Positions 43,892 to 54,008 of a DNA stretch of 64,000 nucleotides are shown piece after piece. Source of the stretch: Bifidobacterium breve (GTDB taxonomy: Bacteria; Actinomycetota; Actinomycetes; Nanopelagicales; Nanopelagicaceae); NCBI GenBank assembly GCA_945860275.1, contig CAMAPN010000001.1:62001-126000 (forward strand). The letters are read 5' to 3'. The notes beneath the pieces were generated by a model. That model searched no databases and was not told the DNA's origin. It saw nothing but the letters and a program-made list of their open reading frames with translations. A program made the position numbers and the translations under genes. Every line of letters starts with the position of its first letter. Position 1 is the stretch's first letter.

Positions 43892-45205
43892 ATGCGAGAG
43901 ACCGACTATGCACAGTTAGGCGCGGAGGCTGTGCGCCTATGTCAAGAATTGATCCGAATTCCCAGTGTCAATCATGGTGGTGGAAAGGGTGATGAACTCG
44001 CTGCAGCCGAATACGTGGCCGAGTATTTAAAAGGTTGCGGCCTTGACCCCACGTTCTATCGGGCAGCCCCTACTCGCGTGAGTGTTGTCGCTCGCATCAA
44101 AGGTCGAGACAGTTCACGTCCTGGGTTGGTGCTCCACGGACACTTGGATACCGTTCCAGCAGATGCCAAAGATTGGACAATGGATCCGTGGTCGGGCGAG
44201 ATCAAGGATGGCGAGATTTGGGGTCGCGGCGCAGTTGATATGAAAGATATGGACGCGATGATTCTTGCCATCGCAAAAGATTGGCATGTTCGCGGTTATG
44301 TTCCAGAACGTGATGTCGTTCTCGCCTTCTTTGCCGATGAAGAAGCAGGCGGAACATATGGCGTCAATTGGATAGTAAAAAATCATCCTGAAGCTTTTAC
44401 TGGCTGCTCCGAGGCAGTTTCGGAAGTTGGTGGCTTCTCTGCAACGTTAAGCAATGGAAAGCGGCTCTATCTCGTCGAAACTTCGGAGAAGGGCATGTAT
44501 TGGATGGAGCTTTCTGCAGAAGGCACTGCAGGCCATGGTTCGATGGTGAATAAAGAGAACGCGGTCACTGCCTTGGCTCAAGCGGTTTCTCGAATTGGCT
44601 CGCACCAGTGGCCGATTCGCATCACTCAAACGCTACGAGTTTTTCTGACAACCGTTGCAAAAACACTTGGGAAAGAATTTGATGAGAAGAATCCAGGACC
44701 AATCGTTGCTGAATTAGGTTCGATGGCTCGGATGATCGGTGCAACGACGCAAAACACGGCGAATCCAACAATGTTGGAAGCTGGGTATAAAGAGAATGTC
44801 ATCCCGCAGCATGCGCGGGCGGTTGTGGACGGCAGATTTCTCCCGGGATATGAAGAGGAATTCCTCACCACTATTCGTGAACTAGCTGGATCAGAGATCA
44901 CCGTTAAACCGATAATCCATGATGTGGCGCTCGAACTGCCATTCACTGGAGAGTTGGTAGACGCCATGTGTGCAGCCATCAAAGATTGTGATCCGGAGGG
45001 TATTCCCGTGCCGTACGTGATGAGCGGAGGAACCGATAACAAAGGATTGTCGAAGCTAGGCATCGCAGGGTACGGGTTCTCGCCATTAAAATTACCGCCA
45101 GAACTTGATTTTATGGCGTTGTTTCATGGAATCAATGAAAGAGTCCCGGTTTCAGCAATCCACTTCGGCGTAGAAGCGCTCGATCGGTTCTTGCAGCGCG
45201 CTTAA
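43892..45205 (+). CDS. M20-family metallopeptidase
   Basis: VLHGHLDTVPADAKDW, WGRGAVDMKDMDAMIL, FFADEEAGG. Confidence 0.93.
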   Translation: MRETDYAQLGAEAVRLCQELIRIPSVNHGGGKGDELAAAEYVAEYLKGCGLDPTFYRAAPTRVSVVARIKGRDSSRPGLVLHGHLDTVPADAKDWTMDPWSGEIKDGEIWGRGAVDMKDMDAMILAIAKDWHVRGYVPERDVVLAFFADEEAGGTYGVNWIVKNHPEAFTGCSEAVSEVGGFSATLSNGKRLYLVETSEKGMYWMELSAEGTAGHGSMVNKENAVTALAQAVSRIGSHQWPIRITQTLRVFLTTVAKTLGKEFDEKNPGPIVAELGSMARMIGATTQNTANPTMLEAGYKENVIPQHARAVVDGRFLPGYEEEFLTTIRELAGSEITVKPIIHDVALELPFTGELVDAMCAAIKDCDPEGIPVPYVMSGGTDNKGLSKLGIAGYGFSPLKLPPELDFMALFHGINERVPVSAIHFGVEALDRFLQRA

Positions 45206-45231
45206 CGCTAAAGGATTAATTGTTGCCCTTG

Positions 45232-45435
45232 TTACAGCGGAGGCAACTGTTCAAATTCAATCTCCGGACGCCACACTTTTCGCTTGAGTTGAACTAAATG
45301 GCGTCCATCTGGGTAAATTCGAACTCGATCCAGAATCCAACGATCGCGCTCGGCAAATTCAGCGAGCATTTTCTGCACTGCGCTCTTTTTCGTTCCCCTA
45401 GGAACGCGAAGCAAGTGGTATTCGTAGGTGATCAT
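45232..45435 (-). CDS. DUF5703 family protein
   Basis: 67 aa YEYHLLRVPRGTKKSAVQKMLAEFAERDRWILDRVRIYPDGRH. Confidence 0.75.
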   Translation of the reverse strand: MITYEYHLLRVPRGTKKSAVQKMLAEFAERDRWILDRVRIYPDGRHLVQLKRKVWRPEIEFEQLPPL

Positions 45436-46358
45436 TGAGCACTCACATCATCAAGAGCGCTGCGCACAACAGCGGGCAATTCAATTTCATCTACACGTAA
45501 GATGCCGCGTAATTGTGCAGCGCTTCGTGCCCCAACAATTGCGCTAGAAATTCCTGGTGCATCGCGAACCCACGCTAGTGCGATTTCAAGAGGTGCTGAT
45601 CCCAAACCATCGGCGGCCATCGCTACAGCTTGCACTATTTGGCGCGCCCGCGGTTCCAAGTAGGGTGACACGAAAGGCCCCAAGTGTGGGCTTGCTCCTC
45701 GAGAGTCTGCTGGTACTCCGTTGAGATACTTTCCGGTGAGTACGCCGCGCCCAAGTGGAGACCATGCTAAGACGCCAAGTCCAACTTCAGCTGCACAGGG
45801 GAGAATTTCTGCTTCCACGCTTCGGTTGAGGAGAGAATATTCATTTTCGGTGATGGATAGAGGAATTGAGCGTTCGAGCAATGTGAATGCCCGAGCAGTT
45901 TGCCAGCCAGAGAAATTTGAGATTCCAATGTATCGAACGCGACCGCTTGACACAGCTAATTCGAGAGCTGTCAAAGTTTCTTCCAGCTGAACGCTCGCAT
46001 CCCACCGTTGCACCATCCAGATATCAAGGTAATCAGTTCGCAACCTTTTAAGCGATTCATCGAGATCCTTGAGCAGATTTCCCCGTGAGTTGTTCGCGCC
46101 AGTTGTGGTCATGCCAGCTTTACTTGCCAGAACAACTTGATCGCGTGGCGTGAGCGTATTGAGCAGACCTCCAATTACGCGCTCGCTATCGCCATCCCCA
46201 AAGATTGCAGCGGTGTCAATGAGAGAGCCGCCATAGTCAAGGAATGCTCGCAGTTGCTCTGCCGCTTCATGTTCGTCGGTATCCCGGCCCCAGGTCATCG
46301 TGCCAAGCCCGAGCGCCGATACGCGCAATCCACTCCTACCTAGTTGACGAATCTCCAT
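45432..46358 (-). CDS. Aldo/keto reductase
   Basis: LGLGTMTWGRDTDEHEA, IDTAAIFGDGDSERVIGGLL, VLASKAGM, IGISNFSGWQ. Confidence 0.94.
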   Translation of the reverse strand: MEIRQLGRSGLRVSALGLGTMTWGRDTDEHEAAEQLRAFLDYGGSLIDTAAIFGDGDSERVIGGLLNTLTPRDQVVLASKAGMTTTGANNSRGNLLKDLDESLKRLRTDYLDIWMVQRWDASVQLEETLTALELAVSSGRVRYIGISNFSGWQTARAFTLLERSIPLSITENEYSLLNRSVEAEILPCAAEVGLGVLAWSPLGRGVLTGKYLNGVPADSRGASPHLGPFVSPYLEPRARQIVQAVAMAADGLGSAPLEIALAWVRDAPGISSAIVGARSAAQLRGILRVDEIELPAVVRSALDDVSAQ

Positions 46359-46420
46359 CGTCTGCAGTTCCTCACTAACTTCGCTAACCTCTAGGTGGGA
46401 GAGTAGCTAGGGGGAACGCA

Positions 46421-47116
46421 TTGGGCACGGTAATACTCATTCGCCACGCGCGCAGTACCGCCAATGCAAACAATATTTTGGCTGGCCAAAGCCCGGGCGT
46501 TCGACTCGACCCCACGGGAGTGGAGCAGAGTAAGTCTCTTGCTGATCTTCTTGGAGAATTGCCCATCAATCGAGTTTTTGTGAGCCCTTTAGAAAGATGT
46601 ATTGACACAATTTCCCCATGGTTAACCAAATATGGCAACAGCGTCGAAGTGCATAGCGAGCCAAGAATTATCGAACCTGATTATGGAACGTGGAGTGGTC
46701 GCTCTCTTGAGGAATTGACGCTAGAGAAACTATGGAGCGATGTGCAACATAATCCCGCTGAAGTGACTTTCCCCAGCGGTGAGAAATTCGCAGACGTATG
46801 GAATCGAGTTGCTGACTTCTATGCACAAATTCGGGAGCTGGCAAACGATGGCGGAAATTACATTGTGGTTAGCCATGGGGACATCATTAAATTTCTCATT
46901 GCGAACGTGCTGAATATTCGATTTGAACATTTTCAAGCTCTCGTCGTTGAGCCAGCCTCTATTTCTATTGCGCAATTTTCCGAAAAGCGAGCTCGATTGG
47001 TGCAATTCAATAGATCTGCCCAAGAGATTGACGCCTTAGTGAGATCTCTATCTCCGGCCACTCTCGGTGGCGAAAGTGGTCAAAAATTCCGTTCCTCTAC
47101 ACAGGGGAGTAATTAA
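46421..47116 (+). CDS. Histidine phosphatase superfamily protein (MSMEG_4193-like)
   Basis: ILIRHARSTANANNILAGQSPGVRLDPTG, VSPLERCIDTI, EPDYGTWSG, VVSHGD; TTG start with AGGGGG SD. Confidence 0.9.
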   Translation: MGTVILIRHARSTANANNILAGQSPGVRLDPTGVEQSKSLADLLGELPINRVFVSPLERCIDTISPWLTKYGNSVEVHSEPRIIEPDYGTWSGRSLEELTLEKLWSDVQHNPAEVTFPSGEKFADVWNRVADFYAQIRELANDGGNYIVVSHGDIIKFLIANVLNIRFEHFQALVVEPASISIAQFSEKRARLVQFNRSAQEIDALVRSLSPATLGGESGQKFRSSTQGSN

Positions 47117-47118
47117 AC

Positions 47119-47643
47119 ATGCGTGAGATTCACGATTTCGAATTCCCAGAGCGATTTATCGCAGGAACTGTTGGGATGCCGGGCGAACGAACTTTTTATC
47201 TCCAGGCCATAGACGGTAGACGCAATGTTTCTGTCGCTTTGGAAAAGAATCAATTGGCAATCCTGGCTGAGCGCATCGTTGCTTTGTGTAAAGAATTGAA
47301 GATGGGTAAGGCCCAAGACCTGAAGCGAAATAACCGTCCGCTACCCCAATTGTTAACTCCGTTCTCTGAAGAGTTCCGCATTGTTGCACTCTCGTTAACA
47401 TGGAATGCGCAGACTGAGCAGTTGATTATTGAAGCTCAAGGCGGAGAAGAGAGCGAAATAGTCGAGGATATCGATACCGGTCCGCCGCTCTTGCGGGTAA
47501 CGCTCGCAATGGAAACGGCGCTCGGTTTCGCTTTGGACTCTTTCACTTTAATTAGCGCTGGTCGACCACCCTGCCAATTCTGTGGGGCACCGCTAGATCC
47601 ACAAGGGCATGTATGTCCGAGGGCAAATGGTTATCGACGCTAG
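47119..47643 (+). CDS. DUF3090 family protein with C-terminal zinc-ribbon-like motif
   Basis: HDFEFPERFIAGTVGMPGERTFYLQA...CQFCGAPLDPQGHVCPRANGYRR. Confidence 0.92.
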   Translation: MREIHDFEFPERFIAGTVGMPGERTFYLQAIDGRRNVSVALEKNQLAILAERIVALCKELKMGKAQDLKRNNRPLPQLLTPFSEEFRIVALSLTWNAQTEQLIIEAQGGEESEIVEDIDTGPPLLRVTLAMETALGFALDSFTLISAGRPPCQFCGAPLDPQGHVCPRANGYRR

Positions 47644-48334
47644 ATCGGCCATCGAATTCGGGGAAATAGAAATCACTGGAAGGTTGGTGGATGCCTCGAA
47701 CGCAACTTTATTTGGACATGTCACGGGAGCTAATGGCGAAGAAATATCTTTGATCTATAAACCAATCGCTGGTGAACGCCCATTGTGGGATTTCCCTGAT
47801 GGCACGTTAGCTGCGCGAGAGGTCGCTGCCTACCAATTTAGTGATTTTGCTGGCTTTAATCTGGTGCCTCTAACGATTCTACGAGATGGACCTTATGGTC
47901 TGGGCGCAGTGCAAGAGTGGGTAGAGGTAGATCAGGAGATAGACATCATTGATCTTGCTCAATCGAGAGATCAAGCCCTTCGCAGATTGGTTCTTTTCGA
48001 TGCCATCATCAACAACACTGACCGGAAGATTGGCCACTTGCTTCCTACGCGAACCGGAGAGCTTTTTGCCTGCGATCATGGCGTGTGTTTCCATCAGGAA
48101 GATAAATTACGAACAGTCTTATGGCAATGGCGTGCAGAGGAGCTGCTTGGCGAGGATTTTGATCTACTTCACTCTGTGAACAATCGTTTCGATGATTTTG
48201 CCTCACTTGTTGAAGAGTTGTTAACGCCTACTGAAATTGCAGCAACCAAGATGAGAATTGAAAGGCTGATCCAAACTCGGGTGTATCCATCTCCCTCTGA
48301 TGATTGGCCGGCGATTCCATGGCCACCAATCTAA
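47627..48334 (+). CDS. SCO1664 family predicted kinase-like protein
   Basis: LIYKPIAGERPLWDFPDGTLAAREVAAY, FDAIINNTDRKIGHLL, ACDHGVCF; start inside the 3' end of the DUF3090 gene. Confidence 0.88.
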   Translation: MVIDARSAIEFGEIEITGRLVDASNATLFGHVTGANGEEISLIYKPIAGERPLWDFPDGTLAAREVAAYQFSDFAGFNLVPLTILRDGPYGLGAVQEWVEVDQEIDIIDLAQSRDQALRRLVLFDAIINNTDRKIGHLLPTRTGELFACDHGVCFHQEDKLRTVLWQWRAEELLGEDFDLLHSVNNRFDDFASLVEELLTPTEIAATKMRIERLIQTRVYPSPSDDWPAIPWPPI

Positions 48335-48375
48335 AGTATGCAGGAAAAGCTCATTTACCTGAGTAAACTCTAGGA

Positions 48376-49611
48376 GTGAAATCTTGGGCTCCGGTGTACC
48401 TACCACCAACCACGCAGAGAGAATTTCCCATTCTTGCGATTCATAACTCGCTAACTGGCAAGAAAGATGCCATTTCTGAAAATCCTGTAACTATGTATGT
48501 CTGTGGCATCACTCCTTACGATGCTACACATCTTGGTCACGCCGCTACATACCTAACATTTGATCTCATCAACAGGTACTTGCGACTCACTGGACGCGCA
48601 ATTGAATATGTTCAAAACATCACAGATGTAGATGACCCCCTTTTGGAACGCGCGCAGCGAGATAACGTTGAATGGGAGTCGTTGGCGGCCAATCAGATTT
48701 CGCTTTTCAGAGATGATATGACCGCGCTTCGTGTATTACCCCCCGATCATTATATGGGCGCTGTAGAAACTATCCCTTGGGTTATTGATGCTGTAAATGA
48801 ACTTAAGAAGCAAAATAGTGTTTACGAGATTGAAGGAGATCTGTACTTCGATATTTCATCTGATCCGGAATTCAATACTTACAACTTGCTATCTTACGAA
48901 GAGCAGATTGCGATATTCGCAGAGCGTGGTGGAGATCCACAGCGCCCTGGCAAACGAAACCCTCTGGATTGCTTGATTTGGCGAAGTGAACGAGAAGGGG
49001 AGCCTGCATGGCCATCACCATTCGGCGCGGGTCGTCCAGGATGGCATATTGAATGCACAGCGATAGCTCTTAAATATTTGACCGCTCCCATTTCTATCCA
49101 AGGTGGTGGCAGTGATCTTCATTTCCCTCATCACACGATGTGTGCCGCTGAAGGAAAAGTTCTTTCCAGCAAAGATTTTGCCAGGCGATTCGTTCATGCA
49201 GGAATGATCGGTTTAGATGGTGAAAAGATGAGCAAATCCAAAGGCAATCTCAAATTCGTTTCAGTGATGCGTGCAGCGGGAATTGATCCGTTGGTTATTA
49301 GAATTGCCTTGCTATCTGGACACTATCGAGAAGATCGCCCGTGGAGTGATGCATTGCTTGTACAGAGCCAAGCGCGTCTTGAATTATGGCGTCAGGCATT
49401 CTCAAGTCCTTATGGGGGAGATGTTGAAACGTTGATTATGGCAATGGCAGAACGTTTGAGTGATGACCTCGACACTCCGGGATCTTTTGAATTGCTCGAT
49501 GTTTGGGCGAGCGAAAGGGTACGGGCCTTGGCTTCTGAAGAGCGTGCAGAAGTTTCCGATGTTGGACAACTTTCCCGATTTTTAGATGCCGCACTCGGCA
49601 TCGCGCTTTAG
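48376..49611 (+). CDS. mshC: Cysteine--1-D-myo-inosityl 2-amino-2-deoxy-alpha-D-glucopyranoside ligase (mycothiol synthesis)
   Basis: CysRS-like TMYVCGITPYDATHLGHAATYLTFDL, GWHIECTAIA, GEKMSKSKGN; PAC2 neighbour; no C-terminal CysRS anticodon domain. Confidence 0.93.
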   Translation: MKSWAPVYLPPTTQREFPILAIHNSLTGKKDAISENPVTMYVCGITPYDATHLGHAATYLTFDLINRYLRLTGRAIEYVQNITDVDDPLLERAQRDNVEWESLAANQISLFRDDMTALRVLPPDHYMGAVETIPWVIDAVNELKKQNSVYEIEGDLYFDISSDPEFNTYNLLSYEEQIAIFAERGGDPQRPGKRNPLDCLIWRSEREGEPAWPSPFGAGRPGWHIECTAIALKYLTAPISIQGGGSDLHFPHHTMCAAEGKVLSSKDFARRFVHAGMIGLDGEKMSKSKGNLKFVSVMRAAGIDPLVIRIALLSGHYREDRPWSDALLVQSQARLELWRQAFSSPYGGDVETLIMAMAERLSDDLDTPGSFELLDVWASERVRALASEERAEVSDVGQLSRFLDAALGIAL

Positions 49612-49625
49612 TCGGTAAACAGAAG

Positions 49626-49649
49626 AGAACCGCAGACGCTAACGGTTCT
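49626..49649. terminator. Candidate hairpin terminator between convergent mshC and PAC2 genes
   Basis: AGAACCG (49626-49632) / CGGTTCT (49643-49649), 10-nt loop, no long T tract; overlaps PAC2 3' end. Confidence 0.5.
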
Positions 49650-50490
49650 TGTCATCTCCTCGGTGGCGCAAATATCGTTCGAATTCGCGAGCAATAGATT
49701 CGCCAGATGCTTCAGGTAACTCTGCCGCATCTTTTGATTCCTCTAGAGATTGTACGTATTCTGAAATTTCTGAATCTTCTTGAGTGATTTGTGTTGCCCC
49801 AAGTTCCCACGCTCGCGCGTCATCGGGCAATTCGCCTTCGGGAATATTTATCTCGATTAAATCTTCCAAATGATTGAGTAAGGCGAGGGTCGCCTTTGGG
49901 CAAGGTGGACTAGCAACGTAGTGTGGAATTGCCGCCCAAAGTGAAACGGCGTCGAGGTCTCGTGCATTACAACCATCTTGCAAAGCGCCAAGAATTCCTG
50001 TTGGACCTTCATAACGACTCATCTCAACATCAAATCGTTTCGCCAAACCAGAATTCGCCGCTGAAAGCGTTACCGGTATTGGGCGAGTATGTGGCACATC
50101 AGCTAAGAGTGACCCAAATGACACTACGAGGGAGATGTCGAGATCTTCCCCCAGGGAGAGCAACTCCCCGATGAAAGTGCGCCACTTCATCGAAGGTTCC
50201 ACTCCGGCAACAACTAACAAATCACGATCAAAATCTGGGACTGTGATGGCGTGCACAGTTGTTGTCGGCCACGAGAGTTCCCGATCACCGTTCTCGTCGA
50301 GAAAGATCTGTGGGCGATTTACTTGATAATCGTAGAAATCTTCTGATTCAACCTCGGCAATCAATTGCGAAGGCCAGAGCGCCAGCAAATGTTCAACTGC
50401 TTTCGATGCAGCTTCACCTGCATCGTTCCAGCCCTGAAAGGCGGCGATCATGATGGGGTCCCGCAGCGCTGGAAGAGAGTAGATCTCCAT
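49639..50490 (-). CDS. PAC2 family protein (proteasome assembly chaperone-like fold)
   Basis: MEIYSLPALRDPIMIAAFQGWNDAGEAASKAVEHLL; second ATG preferred (6 nt after TACTGT). Confidence 0.93.
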   Translation of the reverse strand: MEIYSLPALRDPIMIAAFQGWNDAGEAASKAVEHLLALWPSQLIAEVESEDFYDYQVNRPQIFLDENGDRELSWPTTTVHAITVPDFDRDLLVVAGVEPSMKWRTFIGELLSLGEDLDISLVVSFGSLLADVPHTRPIPVTLSAANSGLAKRFDVEMSRYEGPTGILGALQDGCNARDLDAVSLWAAIPHYVASPPCPKATLALLNHLEDLIEINIPEGELPDDARAWELGATQITQEDSEISEYVQSLEESKDAAELPEASGESIAREFERYLRHRGDDKNR

Positions 50491-50496
50491 GGCCAT

Positions 50497-50522
50497 ACAG
50501 TAGAGCAGGTACCCTTGCTCTA
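50497..50522. promoter_or_regulatory. Divergent PAC2/metH promoter region with inverted repeat
   Basis: + strand TACCCT (50510-50515) 7 nt before metH ATG; - strand TACTGT (50497-50502) 6 nt before PAC2 ATG 50490; IR TAGAGCA (50501-50507) / TGCTCTA (50516-50522). Confidence 0.65.
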
Positions 50523-53500
50523 ATGAAAAGCCTTCGCGATACCCTCAAGGAACGGGTCCTGATTGTGGATGGGGCTATGGGCACAATGCTCCAGGAGCAG
50601 AACCCCACTCTCGAGGATTTTCAAGGTCATGAAGGCTGCAACGAGATTCTCAATGTCAGCTCACCAGAGATGGTGAAAAAGGTCCATCGCGCCTACCTCG
50701 AGGTTGGGGTAGATGGCATCGAAACGAACACTTTCGGCGCAAACTTTGGCAATCTCGCCGAGTATGGAATTGAAGATCGTATTTTTGAACTTGCCTACGC
50801 CGGAGCGAAGCTGGCGCGCGAGGTGGCCGATGAATTCTCTAGCACGCAACCACGCTGGGTGTTTGGCTCAATTGGACCAGGTACGAAACTTCCTACCCTG
50901 GGCCACACCACCTATGCCACCTTGCGCGATGCTTACCAAGAATGTGCACGCGGGTTAATTGAAGGGGGTTCGGATGCGCTCTTGGTGGAAACCTCCCAAG
51001 ATCTTCTCCAGACGAAAGCAGCTATAAATGGATGTCGAGCAGCGATAGATGATTCCGGAAAAGATTTATTACTCATCGCTCAAGTGACTGTTGAAACTAC
51101 TGGAACCATGTTGTTGGGCAGCGAGATCGGCGCAGCGCTCACAGCGCTGGAGCCTTTGGGAATTGATGTCATCGGCCTTAACTGTGCTACCGGTCCCGCT
51201 GAAATGAGCGAACACCTCCGACAACTTTCGCAGTCCTCATCAGTAATGCTCTCTTGTATGCCTAACGCAGGATTGCCGATCTTAGAAAGCGGTGGAGCGC
51301 GTTATCCGCTCACACCTAAAGAATTAGCGAAGAGTCTCTTAACTTTTGTAGACGACTATGGGTTAAACATAATTGGTGGTTGCTGTGGTACTACCCCCGA
51401 GCATCTAGCGGAAGTCGTACAGATATTTAATGAGAATAAAAGAAGCGTTACAACGCGGAGCGTAACTTTCGATCCTGGCGCAGCTTCGCTTTATCAGCAT
51501 GCTTCTTTTCGTCAACAGAACACCTACATGGCAATCGGAGAACGTACCAACGCAAATGGTTCTAAAGCCTTTCGAGATGCTCTACTGGAAAATGATTGGC
51601 AGCAGTGCCTTGAAATTGCAAAAGGTCAGATTCGAGAAGGCGCCCATATGCTCGATCTGTGCGTCGATTATGTTGGACGCAACGGAGTTGCAGATATGGA
51701 GCAACTTGCCGAGCTCTTTGCAACCAGTTCCACGCTACCAATAGTCCTCGATTCAACAGAGCCAGCTGTTCTTCAAGCAGGACTAGAGAAATTGGGTGGA
51801 AGGGCGGTCATCAACTCAGTCAATTATGAAGATGGAGATGGCCCTTCCTCGAGATTCGCCAAGATTATGCCGCTTGTTAAGGAGCATGGCGCCGCGGTTG
51901 TTGCGTTGACCATCGATGAAGAGGGTCAAGCGCGTACCTCTGATTGGAAAGTAAAAGTTGCATCGCGACTGATTGACGATTTAACGAACAATTGGGGACT
52001 TCGCGTCTCAGACATTCTTATCGATTCTCTCACCTTCCCAATCGCTACTGGGCAAGAAGAAACACGTCGGGATGGAATTGAAACGTTAGAAGCTATCAAA
52101 GAAATCAGATCTCGATACCCACAAGTGCAAACCGTCCTGGGAGTGAGCAATATTTCCTTTGGCTTGAATCCCGCAGCACGAATCGTCTTAAATTCGGTAT
52201 TCCTCCACGAAGCGGTTTCTGCCGGTTTAACTTCAGCAATTATTCACCCTTCGAAAATCACACCGATGATCCGAATCGACGAGAAATCGCGTGAGTTAGC
52301 CCTTGATTTAATTTATGATCGTCGAAAATACGATGCACTCTCGCAAGAAGTTATCTATGACCCACTCACGGAGTTCTTGACGCACTTTGAAGGCGCCGAA
52401 GTAACCTCGTCAAGAAATTCTCGGGCAGAACAACTGGCAGCCCTTTCCCTTCCAGACCGTTTAAAACAACGAATAATCGATGGCGAGCGAAATGGTTTAG
52501 AAGATGATCTAGAGCTAGCTATTTCCGAGGGGATGGCTCCATTAGACATTATTAATAGCCTTCTGCTTGATGGCATGAAGACTGTCGGCGAACTCTTTGG
52601 TAAGGGGGAGATGCAACTTCCTTTTGTACTCCAAAGCGCCGAAGTGATGAAGCGAGCGGTGGCTCATCTTGAACCAAAAATGGAGAAGAGCGATTCTTCT
52701 GGACGTGGGAAGATTTTGCTAGCAACCGTAAAGGGTGATGTGCACGATATTGGCAAGAATCTCGTTGACATTATCCTTTCAAATAATGGCTACAACGTGC
52801 ACAACATTGGAATCAAGCAATCAATCAATACGATCATTGAAGAAGCTGAAAAAGCGAATGTGGACGTTGTTGGCATGAGTGGATTGTTGGTCAAATCCAC
52901 AGTCATCATGAAAGAGAATCTCGAAGAACTGGCTATTCGGGGACTTGCCGAAAGGTGGCCAGTCATTCTTGGCGGCGCTGCACTCACTCGAGCTTTTGTT
53001 GAGCAAGATCTAGCAGAGGTTTACCCCGGCACTGTTCGCTATGCCAAGGATGCCTTCGAGGGATTGGACTTGATGGATCGCCTCATGGCGCTCAAACGTG
53101 GGGAACCTGGAGCGGCGTTACCTGAATTGCGTAAACGACGCACGAAGGTGGCCCGTTCCGATGAAGACGCTCGGGAGATAGATACCAAGCGCAGTGATAT
53201 CCGTACTGATAATGAAATACCAACACCGCCCTTCTGGGGCTCGCGCGTAATCAAAGGGATTCCACTCAATGATTACGTCAGCATGCTCGATGAGCGGGCG
53301 CTTTTTGTTGGTCAGTGGGGTTTAAAGGGTGGCAAAAGTTTTACTGAAATGGCAGAACTAGAAGGTCGACCTCGTTTGCGCCAACTGCTTAATGATATCC
53401 AGGTTAATAACTGGATTGAAGCGGCCGTTGTATACGGTTACTACCCCTGTTTTAGCGAAGGAAATGATCTTGTCATTCTCGATCCAGAAAAACCTCTTGA

Positions 53501-54008
53501 GCGTAAAGAAATCTCACGTTTAACATTTCCGCGTCAACGTCGCGATAGGAGACTGTGCCTCTCTGATTTCTTCGCATCGAAGGATAGTGGTCGAATAGAT
53601 GTGGTCGCCTTCCACGTGGTGACTATGGGTGAAGCGGTCAGTCGTGCGACTGGGAAACTTTTTGCTCAGAACAACTTCCGTGAGTATCTTGAATTACACG
53701 GCCTGTCAGTGCAACTGACTGAAGCCTTAGCGGAATATTGGCACGCTCGAATACGAGCAGAGCAAGGTTTTGGGATTGAAGATAGCTCCGAATTAGATTC
53801 TATTCTCGATCAAGGTTACCGTGGGTCGCGCTATTCCTTTGGCTATCCAGCTTGTCCTGACCTCTCTCAGCAAACTCAACTCTGCGAGTTACTTAAACCT
53901 GAACGAATTGGCGTAAATCTTTCGGAAGAGTTTCAATTGCACCCAGAACAATCAACATCTGCCATCATCGTTCATCACCCCGAAGCAAAATATTTCAACG
54001 CGACATGA
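50523..54008 (+). CDS. metH: Cobalamin-dependent methionine synthase
   Basis: IVDGAMGTMLQ, GGCCGTTPEHL, GERTNANGSKAF, TVKGDVHDIGKNLVDIIL (B12 motif), C-terminal activation domain. Confidence 0.98.
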   Translation: MKSLRDTLKERVLIVDGAMGTMLQEQNPTLEDFQGHEGCNEILNVSSPEMVKKVHRAYLEVGVDGIETNTFGANFGNLAEYGIEDRIFELAYAGAKLAREVADEFSSTQPRWVFGSIGPGTKLPTLGHTTYATLRDAYQECARGLIEGGSDALLVETSQDLLQTKAAINGCRAAIDDSGKDLLLIAQVTVETTGTMLLGSEIGAALTALEPLGIDVIGLNCATGPAEMSEHLRQLSQSSSVMLSCMPNAGLPILESGGARYPLTPKELAKSLLTFVDDYGLNIIGGCCGTTPEHLAEVVQIFNENKRSVTTRSVTFDPGAASLYQHASFRQQNTYMAIGERTNANGSKAFRDALLENDWQQCLEIAKGQIREGAHMLDLCVDYVGRNGVADMEQLAELFATSSTLPIVLDSTEPAVLQAGLEKLGGRAVINSVNYEDGDGPSSRFAKIMPLVKEHGAAVVALTIDEEGQARTSDWKVKVASRLIDDLTNNWGLRVSDILIDSLTFPIATGQEETRRDGIETLEAIKEIRSRYPQVQTVLGVSNISFGLNPAARIVLNSVFLHEAVSAGLTSAIIHPSKITPMIRIDEKSRELALDLIYDRRKYDALSQEVIYDPLTEFLTHFEGAEVTSSRNSRAEQLAALSLPDRLKQRIIDGERNGLEDDLELAISEGMAPLDIINSLLLDGMKTVGELFGKGEMQLPFVLQSAEVMKRAVAHLEPKMEKSDSSGRGKILLATVKGDVHDIGKNLVDIILSNNGYNVHNIGIKQSINTIIEEAEKANVDVVGMSGLLVKSTVIMKENLEELAIRGLAERWPVILGGAALTRAFVEQDLAEVYPGTVRYAKDAFEGLDLMDRLMALKRGEPGAALPELRKRRTKVARSDEDAREIDTKRSDIRTDNEIPTPPFWGSRVIKGIPLNDYVSMLDERALFVGQWGLKGGKSFTEMAELEGRPRLRQLLNDIQVNNWIEAAVVYGYYPCFSEGNDLVILDPEKPLERKEISRLTFPRQRRDRRLCLSDFFASKDSGRIDVVAFHVVTMGEAVSRATGKLFAQNNFREYLELHGLSVQLTEALAEYWHARIRAEQGFGIEDSSELDSILDQGYRGSRYSFGYPACPDLSQQTQLCELLKPERIGVNLSEEFQLHPEQSTSAIIVHHPEAKYFNAT

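Follow-up and report, generated by a model that had tools for sequence, protein, structure and literature searches.

A conserved gene set of histidine phosphatase, DUF3090 protein and predicted PI4K-II-like kinase in actinobacteria

A histidine phosphatase, a DUF3090 protein and an SCO1664-family kinase, encoded by three adjacent genes, were found to be an ancient and conserved trio of actinobacteria. It is retained across several actinobacterial classes, including mycobacteria and streptomycetes. We propose, with a probability of roughly 0.45, that the kinase and phosphatase are an opposed pair and that DUF3090 is a partner of the kinase and not an obligatory substrate. The window (the whole stretch of 64,000 nucleotides that was analysed) belongs to an actinobacterial genome of 1.3 Mb (G000), and the closest relatives of its kinase were from freshwater actinobacteria such as Candidatus Planktophila. 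The features of the locus are listed in Table 1.

Table 1. Positions in the window of the three genes, their predicted functional sites and the adjoining mshC gene
Feature	Position	Strand	Support and remarks
Histidine phosphatase (branch 1), MSMEG_4193/Rv2135c-type	46421..47116	+	TTG start; TIGR03848 190.1 bits; PF00300 140.7 bits
Phosphatase catalytic RH	46442-46447	+	SHGD motif has the other catalytic His, at 46874-46876
DUF3090 protein, 174 aa	47119..47643	+	TIGR03847 172.4 bits; PF11290 157.8 bits; AlphaFold2 pLDDT 87.7
DUF3090 N-terminal invariant patch (P21, G22, R24, F26 ... E42, K43)	47179..47247	+	conservation
DUF3090 putative zinc site (C152, C155, H164, C166)	47572..47616	+	invariant or 110/111
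SCO1664-family kinase, 235 aa	47627..48334 (alternative start 47609)	+	TIGR03843 280 bits; AlphaFold2; Foldseek
Kinase K45 (YKP; predicted ATP-site lysine) and the loop after it, containing W54 (PLWDF)	47759..47788	+	
Kinase catalytic loop NNTDRKIGH (D132 catalytic; H137 at the PI4K-II metal Asn position)	48011..48037	+	
Kinase DHG metal motif (D150)	48074..48082	+	D150 119/119
mshC, mycothiol cysteine ligase	48376..49611	+	TIGR03447 528 bits, above cut-off

The original prediction described three tightly packed genes, the last beginning inside the second, and both points were confirmed by the open reading frames 46421-47116, 47119-47643 and 47609/47627-48334, all on the forward strand. Both candidate ATG codons of the kinase lie within the DUF3090 gene, 17–35 bp ahead of its 3' end; that at 47627 was preferred over 47609 because it agrees with the family alignment and has GAGGG just upstream. 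Scores were above the curated cut-offs for the kinase (TIGR03843, 280 against 172.4 bits) and for DUF3090 (TIGR03847, 172.4 against 117.25 bits; PF11290, 157.8 against 27 bits). The window phosphatase reached 190.1 bits with TIGR03848, about 14 bits short of the cut-off of 203.85, and has the RH, second His, Arg and Glu of the histidine phosphatase superfamily, branch 1. TIGR03848 was nevertheless its top model by far, and several genuine trio phosphatases also scored below the cut-off. Given the best model, the conserved operon and these other sub-cut-off members, the window phosphatase was regarded as a divergent TIGR03848 relative by context and not by score.

The three families are already catalogued in NCBIfam, whose model notes appear to treat TIGR03848, TIGR03847 and TIGR03843 as one actinobacterial system of three genes, one of them PI-kinase-like; the models give none of the three a function. 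In the literature collection that was searched, no paper named any of the three models. The suggestion that the locus is an undescribed protein system had to be given up, since each of the three proteins is covered by an NCBIfam model, assays of Rv2135c exist and the linkage of SCO1664 to mshC has been published.

To describe the distribution of the trio, its presence was recorded across the phylum and within the class Actinomycetes. The kinase and DUF3090 were each present in 52 of 120 phylum genomes, in identical genome sets, and the phosphatase adjoined them in all 52, in two of which the kinase was interrupted by a contig end. Of 148 genomes of the class Actinomycetes, 140 had DUF3090 and 139 the kinase, with G171 the sole discrepancy. 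The order phosphatase–DUF3090–kinase was constant, and all 110 complete trios lay on a single strand. Overlap of the DUF3090 and kinase genes is frequent in the family and not universal, with a gap of ≤0 in 59 of 110 trios and a 4-bp overlap the commonest arrangement. This co-occurrence and constant order are far beyond chance, and the lack of conserved co-occurrence that would have counted against the original prediction was not what was found. Outside the class Actinomycetes, no conserved additional neighbours were found in 20 loci, which indicates a unit of exactly phosphatase, DUF3090 and kinase.

Two further contexts were considered for the trio and rejected. Plasmid carriage was indicated by two records, one of which, at 11.85 Mb, is necessarily a chromosome. 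For anti-phage defence there was one marginal PADLOC match (E 0.0011), to the kinase only, which was judged to be superfamily noise. Separately, a contig labelled 'Chloroflexi bacterium' carried DUF3090–kinase (L106:9307-10726) with no recognisable phosphatase within 10 kb on each side; the kinases of this contig and of the window share 49% identity, so the contig is possibly mislabelled.

The kinase residues K45, E65, D132, H137 and D150 were conserved in 119/119 members, as were R133 and K134, and a basic stretch, KLRTxxW, downstream of the DHG motif was nearly invariant. The lysine, glutamate, catalytic loop and DHG motif named in the original prediction are thus present and conserved, and there was no loss of catalytic residues across the family in either enzyme (113/113 for the phosphatase, 119/119 for the kinase). 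The AlphaFold2 model of the kinase (pLDDT 91.5, pTM 0.90) had PI4K-IIalpha as its top Foldseek match (4hnd, E 4.7e-9, TMq 0.66), followed by PI4K-IIbeta and then by Fam20C and CtkA. In profile alignment, the kinase NNADRKGGH paired with PI4K2B RNTDRGNDN, placing His at the metal Asn; this second metal-binding Asn, expected of PI3/PI4 kinases, was His (DRKxGH loop) in 119/119 kinases. The window kinase scored 23.2 bits with PF00454 (PI3/PI4 kinase), under the gathering score of 27.1, while 26 of 28 members matched that model at E ≤ 0.01 (best 1.7e-8; 32.9 bits for member L143). HipA_2 gave 13.3 bits for the window kinase, below the cut-off, and a weak Pfam match in 4/28 members; Pfam Fam20C was matched by 1/28. 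The HipA domain with adjacent HipB that marks HipA toxin–antitoxin systems was likewise not found, with no extra neighbour conserved outside the class Actinomycetes. Of the proposed HipA/PI3-4-kinase layout, the PI4K-II fold part was therefore upheld and the HipA part found only weakly. A specific fold can now be assigned to the kinase: its predicted structure is closest to that of type II PI4K and supports its membership, as an intact kinase, of the PI3/4K-HipA-Fam20 superfamily.

For the phosphatase, R8, H9, R59, E85 and H152 were conserved in 113/113 members, among them the RH and the His of the SHGD motif that had been pointed out beforehand. Rv2135c has been characterized as an acid phosphatase that lacks phosphoglycerate mutase activity and is weakly active on general substrates; its gene and Rv2136c are predicted to form an operon (PMC3866925). 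In the class Actinomycetes, the phosphatases terminate in a Gly-rich motif (e.g. AVGGGAG; TLGGESGQK in the window, 47004-47113) that those of other classes lack.

The C-terminal metal-site-like motif of DUF3090 (CQFCG...GHVCPR in the window), a family feature already noted in the literature (PMC9425974), was likewise present and conserved as predicted, with C152 and C155 in 111/111 and H164 and C166 in 110/111 sequences; the single exception (L060) has a frameshift-like C-terminus. In the AlphaFold2 model (pLDDT 87.7), a beta-sheet-plus-helix unit occurs twice, and the metal-site motif at the C-terminus has the form CxxC-x8-HxC. The only fold match with a probability near 1 was PUR-alpha (3k44; E 1.5e-3, TMq 0.42, rmsd 10.6), so that nucleic-acid binding may serve as a lead only. 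No sequence relatives of DUF3090 were found in the PDB, and among viral structures the matches were just unnamed or weak. Transposon mutants of MSMEG_4192 (DUF3090) were enriched under dibucaine, a drug that disturbs membranes (PMC10127668), the protein was found in a ClpC1 interactome (PMC10433963) and a transposon screen of BCG with rifampicin picked out Rv2134c (PMC11329110). The recovery of mutants in such screens argues that DUF3090 is non-essential for growth.

A small number of genomes depart from the usual three-gene arrangement. In Frankia-like genomes, DUF3090 was kept at another site in the genome while the phosphatase and kinase remained near mshC; that the gene was kept although no longer linked speaks for a functional connection. 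Some Frankia-like genomes (L132, L133; G176, G145) had a lone copy of DUF3090 in addition to that of the trio; relatives of G176 and G145 had the lone copy only. Phosphatase–kinase pairs lacking DUF3090 were found in two lineages, at a second locus of G008 and in G344 (Corynebacterium-like), at loci L143 and L145/L159. Their kinases are sisters (94/89) and their phosphatases fall in one clade (99/97); the kinases were placed near those of another class, which suggests transfer. G008 thereby has two SCO1664-family kinases (C17:153588 and C17:398696): one belongs to a complete trio, the other to a pair without DUF3090. The pairs at L143:3308-6757 and L159:3644-8021 lie divergently next to an AAA ATPase gene (Mg-chelatase/MoxR-like) and a gene for a VWA-domain protein, which are 65–71% identical between G008 and G344; pair, ATPase and VWA gene are possibly a four-gene mobile set. 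The Corynebacterium glutamicum control was positive for kinase and phosphatase and not for DUF3090. Conversely, G171 had phosphatase–DUF3090–mshC with the kinase cleanly absent (75 bp from DUF3090 to mshC), and G261 had DUF3090–mshC with neither kinase nor phosphatase. Overall, these arrangements show the core of the set to be phosphatase–kinase. As regards the surroundings, the window (43892-54008) and G171 (L144) have in common a block made up of genes for an M20 peptidase and an aldo/keto reductase, the trio, mshC and metH, and a UppP-like gene lies directly upstream of the phosphatase in G171 (L144) and of DUF3090 in G261, with none there in the window.

The exceptional genomes were also compared at conserved residues. 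DUF3090 of G261 deviated at 6 of the 20 columns conserved at ≥95%, namely P21, G22, R24, F26, E42 and K43. All six changes were in the N-terminal patch, and the four putative metal ligands were retained; as 9 of the 20 near-invariant columns are N-terminal, finding 6/6 there by chance has p ~0.002, for one lineage. The unlinked Frankia-like copies deviated at 1/20. Both DUF3090-less kinases were changed at W54 (to Ser and His), one of 45 near-invariant kinase columns, and the only other deviation among these was K160 to Arg, in one of the two. The phosphatases of the same pairs had no common deviation at near-invariant columns. Loss of the DUF3090 patch where kinase and phosphatase are absent, together with loss of kinase W54 where DUF3090 is absent, was read as a kinase–DUF3090 contact, an argument that covers one genome (G261) and the partial case of G171 on the DUF3090 side and two related kinases on the other. 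We infer from these substitutions that DUF3090 probably touches the kinase, and candidate residues for the contact can be named.

In the proposed model, the kinase, with its PI4K-II-like fold, would phosphorylate a substrate in an ATP-dependent manner and the histidine phosphatase would take off the same or a linked phosphate, the two presumably having a common substrate. With three genes, the usual form, DUF3090 would bind the kinase and tune or target it; in the rarer two-gene form it would be dispensable. The intact active sites, PI4K-II fold, near-obligate co-occurrence, constant order, two-gene phosphatase–kinase units and correlated residue loss support this model; the weak general activity of Rv2135c (PMC3866925) and the His for Asn in the kinase count against it. 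The basic KLRTxxW stretch would fit a lipid headgroup or a phosphorylated small molecule more readily than just any protein, and a phosphoinositide is a possible substrate. It is a long shot that the set is a bacterial phosphoinositide-type switch, in which the PI4K-II-like kinase and a dedicated phosphatase would act on phosphatidylinositol or an inositol glycolipid under the control of DUF3090. If true, inositol lipids would undergo a cycle of phosphorylation in organisms other than eukaryotes, and an inositol-lipid substrate would provide a bacterial counterpart to central eukaryotic signalling chemistry.

The original prediction had instead envisaged a modification cycle, here taken as phosphorylation of DUF3090 by the kinase and its reversal by the phosphatase. 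Tight linkage of the three genes and the dependence of conserved DUF3090 residues on the presence of kinase and phosphatase would fit such a cycle, and the co-occurrence that it presupposes is real. The part that was weakened is DUF3090 as dedicated substrate: kinase and phosphatase occur in its absence (L143, L145/L159), it occurs in the absence of the kinase (G171, G261) and no Ser, Thr or Tyr is among its invariant columns. DUF3090 is thus unlikely to be the sole substrate, and the cycle as a whole is quite improbable. Much the same holds for a phosphomutase pathway, in which a phospho-sugar or phospho-polyol made by the kinase would have its phosphate shifted by the enzyme of histidine phosphatase fold; mutases do exist within the fold superfamily and the NCBIfam name is 'putative phosphomutase', but Rv2135c is a phosphatase with no phosphoglycerate mutase activity (PMC3866925). 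A degenerate kinase that serves as a binding protein is also unlikely. The His that replaces the metal Asn in every member could mean altered or lost catalysis, and the nearest sequence-profile match is the pseudokinase FAM20A, but this kinship reflects the superfamily, active Fam20C also has a non-Asn metal ligand, and the Lys, Glu, catalytic Asp and DHG Asp are invariant in 119/119 kinases.

A role in mycothiol metabolism was the obvious functional guess. SCO1664 has been reported to be 'invariably closely linked' to mshC (PMC4255298). In our set, mshC adjoined the trio in the class Actinomycetes only. MshC scored above the cut-off in 10/52 trio genomes and at 391–426 bits, an uncertain range, in 10/52; in 32/52 its scores were merely in the cysteinyl-tRNA-synthetase range. 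In the family that includes Mycobacterium, 7 of 121 genomes lacked DUF3090, all from one Corynebacterium-like genus; all seven have MshC (646–705 bits) and six lack kinase, DUF3090 and TIGR03848-type phosphatase. The trio without MshC and MshC without the trio indicate that the link is positional only and that the trio is not part of mycothiol synthesis, so any mycothiol role was dropped, on the strength of at least 32 trio genomes without MshC and six of seven Corynebacterium-like genomes with MshC and no trio. The eight class Actinomycetes genomes that lack DUF3090 and kinase also lack MshC, and this joint absence may be deletion of a linked block. A related explanation equates the phosphatase with MshA2, the still unassigned mycothiol phosphatase, or with the likewise unassigned PIP-to-PI phosphatase, the trio serving inositol-phosphate compounds. 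The position of mshC, the presence of Ino1 in 50/52 trio genomes versus 35/68 others and the lack of an identified PIP phosphatase in the 2015–2019 literature are in its favour, although the Ino1 correlation could be explicable by shared ancestry. It is nonetheless highly improbable, given the MshC scores of the at least 32 trio genomes above and the MshC-bearing Corynebacterium-like genomes that lack the trio though corynebacteria make both mycothiol and PI; the latter rule out MshA2 and PIP phosphatase as universal roles.

Returning to the pair with a DUF3090 partner, its components can be compared with known systems. The window genes match all three NCBIfam families, TIGR03848, TIGR03847 and TIGR03843, in the same phosphatase–DUF3090–kinase order, and differ from TIGR03848 (MSMEG_4193 family) in that the phosphatase scores 14 bits under the cut-off. 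Rv2135c, an acid phosphatase with no mutase activity, is of the same family as the window phosphatase by name and locus. The beta-sheet-plus-helix repeats of PUR-alpha (3k44) are similar to those modelled for DUF3090, although the match is weak and there is no sequence kinship in the PDB. Fam20 and CtkA/HipA-type kinases have the atypical kinase superfamily in common with the trio kinase, Fam20A being top by sequence profile (E 0.0016), but their fold match is weaker than that of PI4K-II. Relative to type II PI4K (PI4K2A/PI4K2B), the trio kinase is ~19% identical, shorter (235 aa) and has His for the metal Asn, yet it is alike in predicted fold (TMq 0.66–0.68, probability 1.00), in the Lys, in the NTDR loop and in the D(H/N)G motif.
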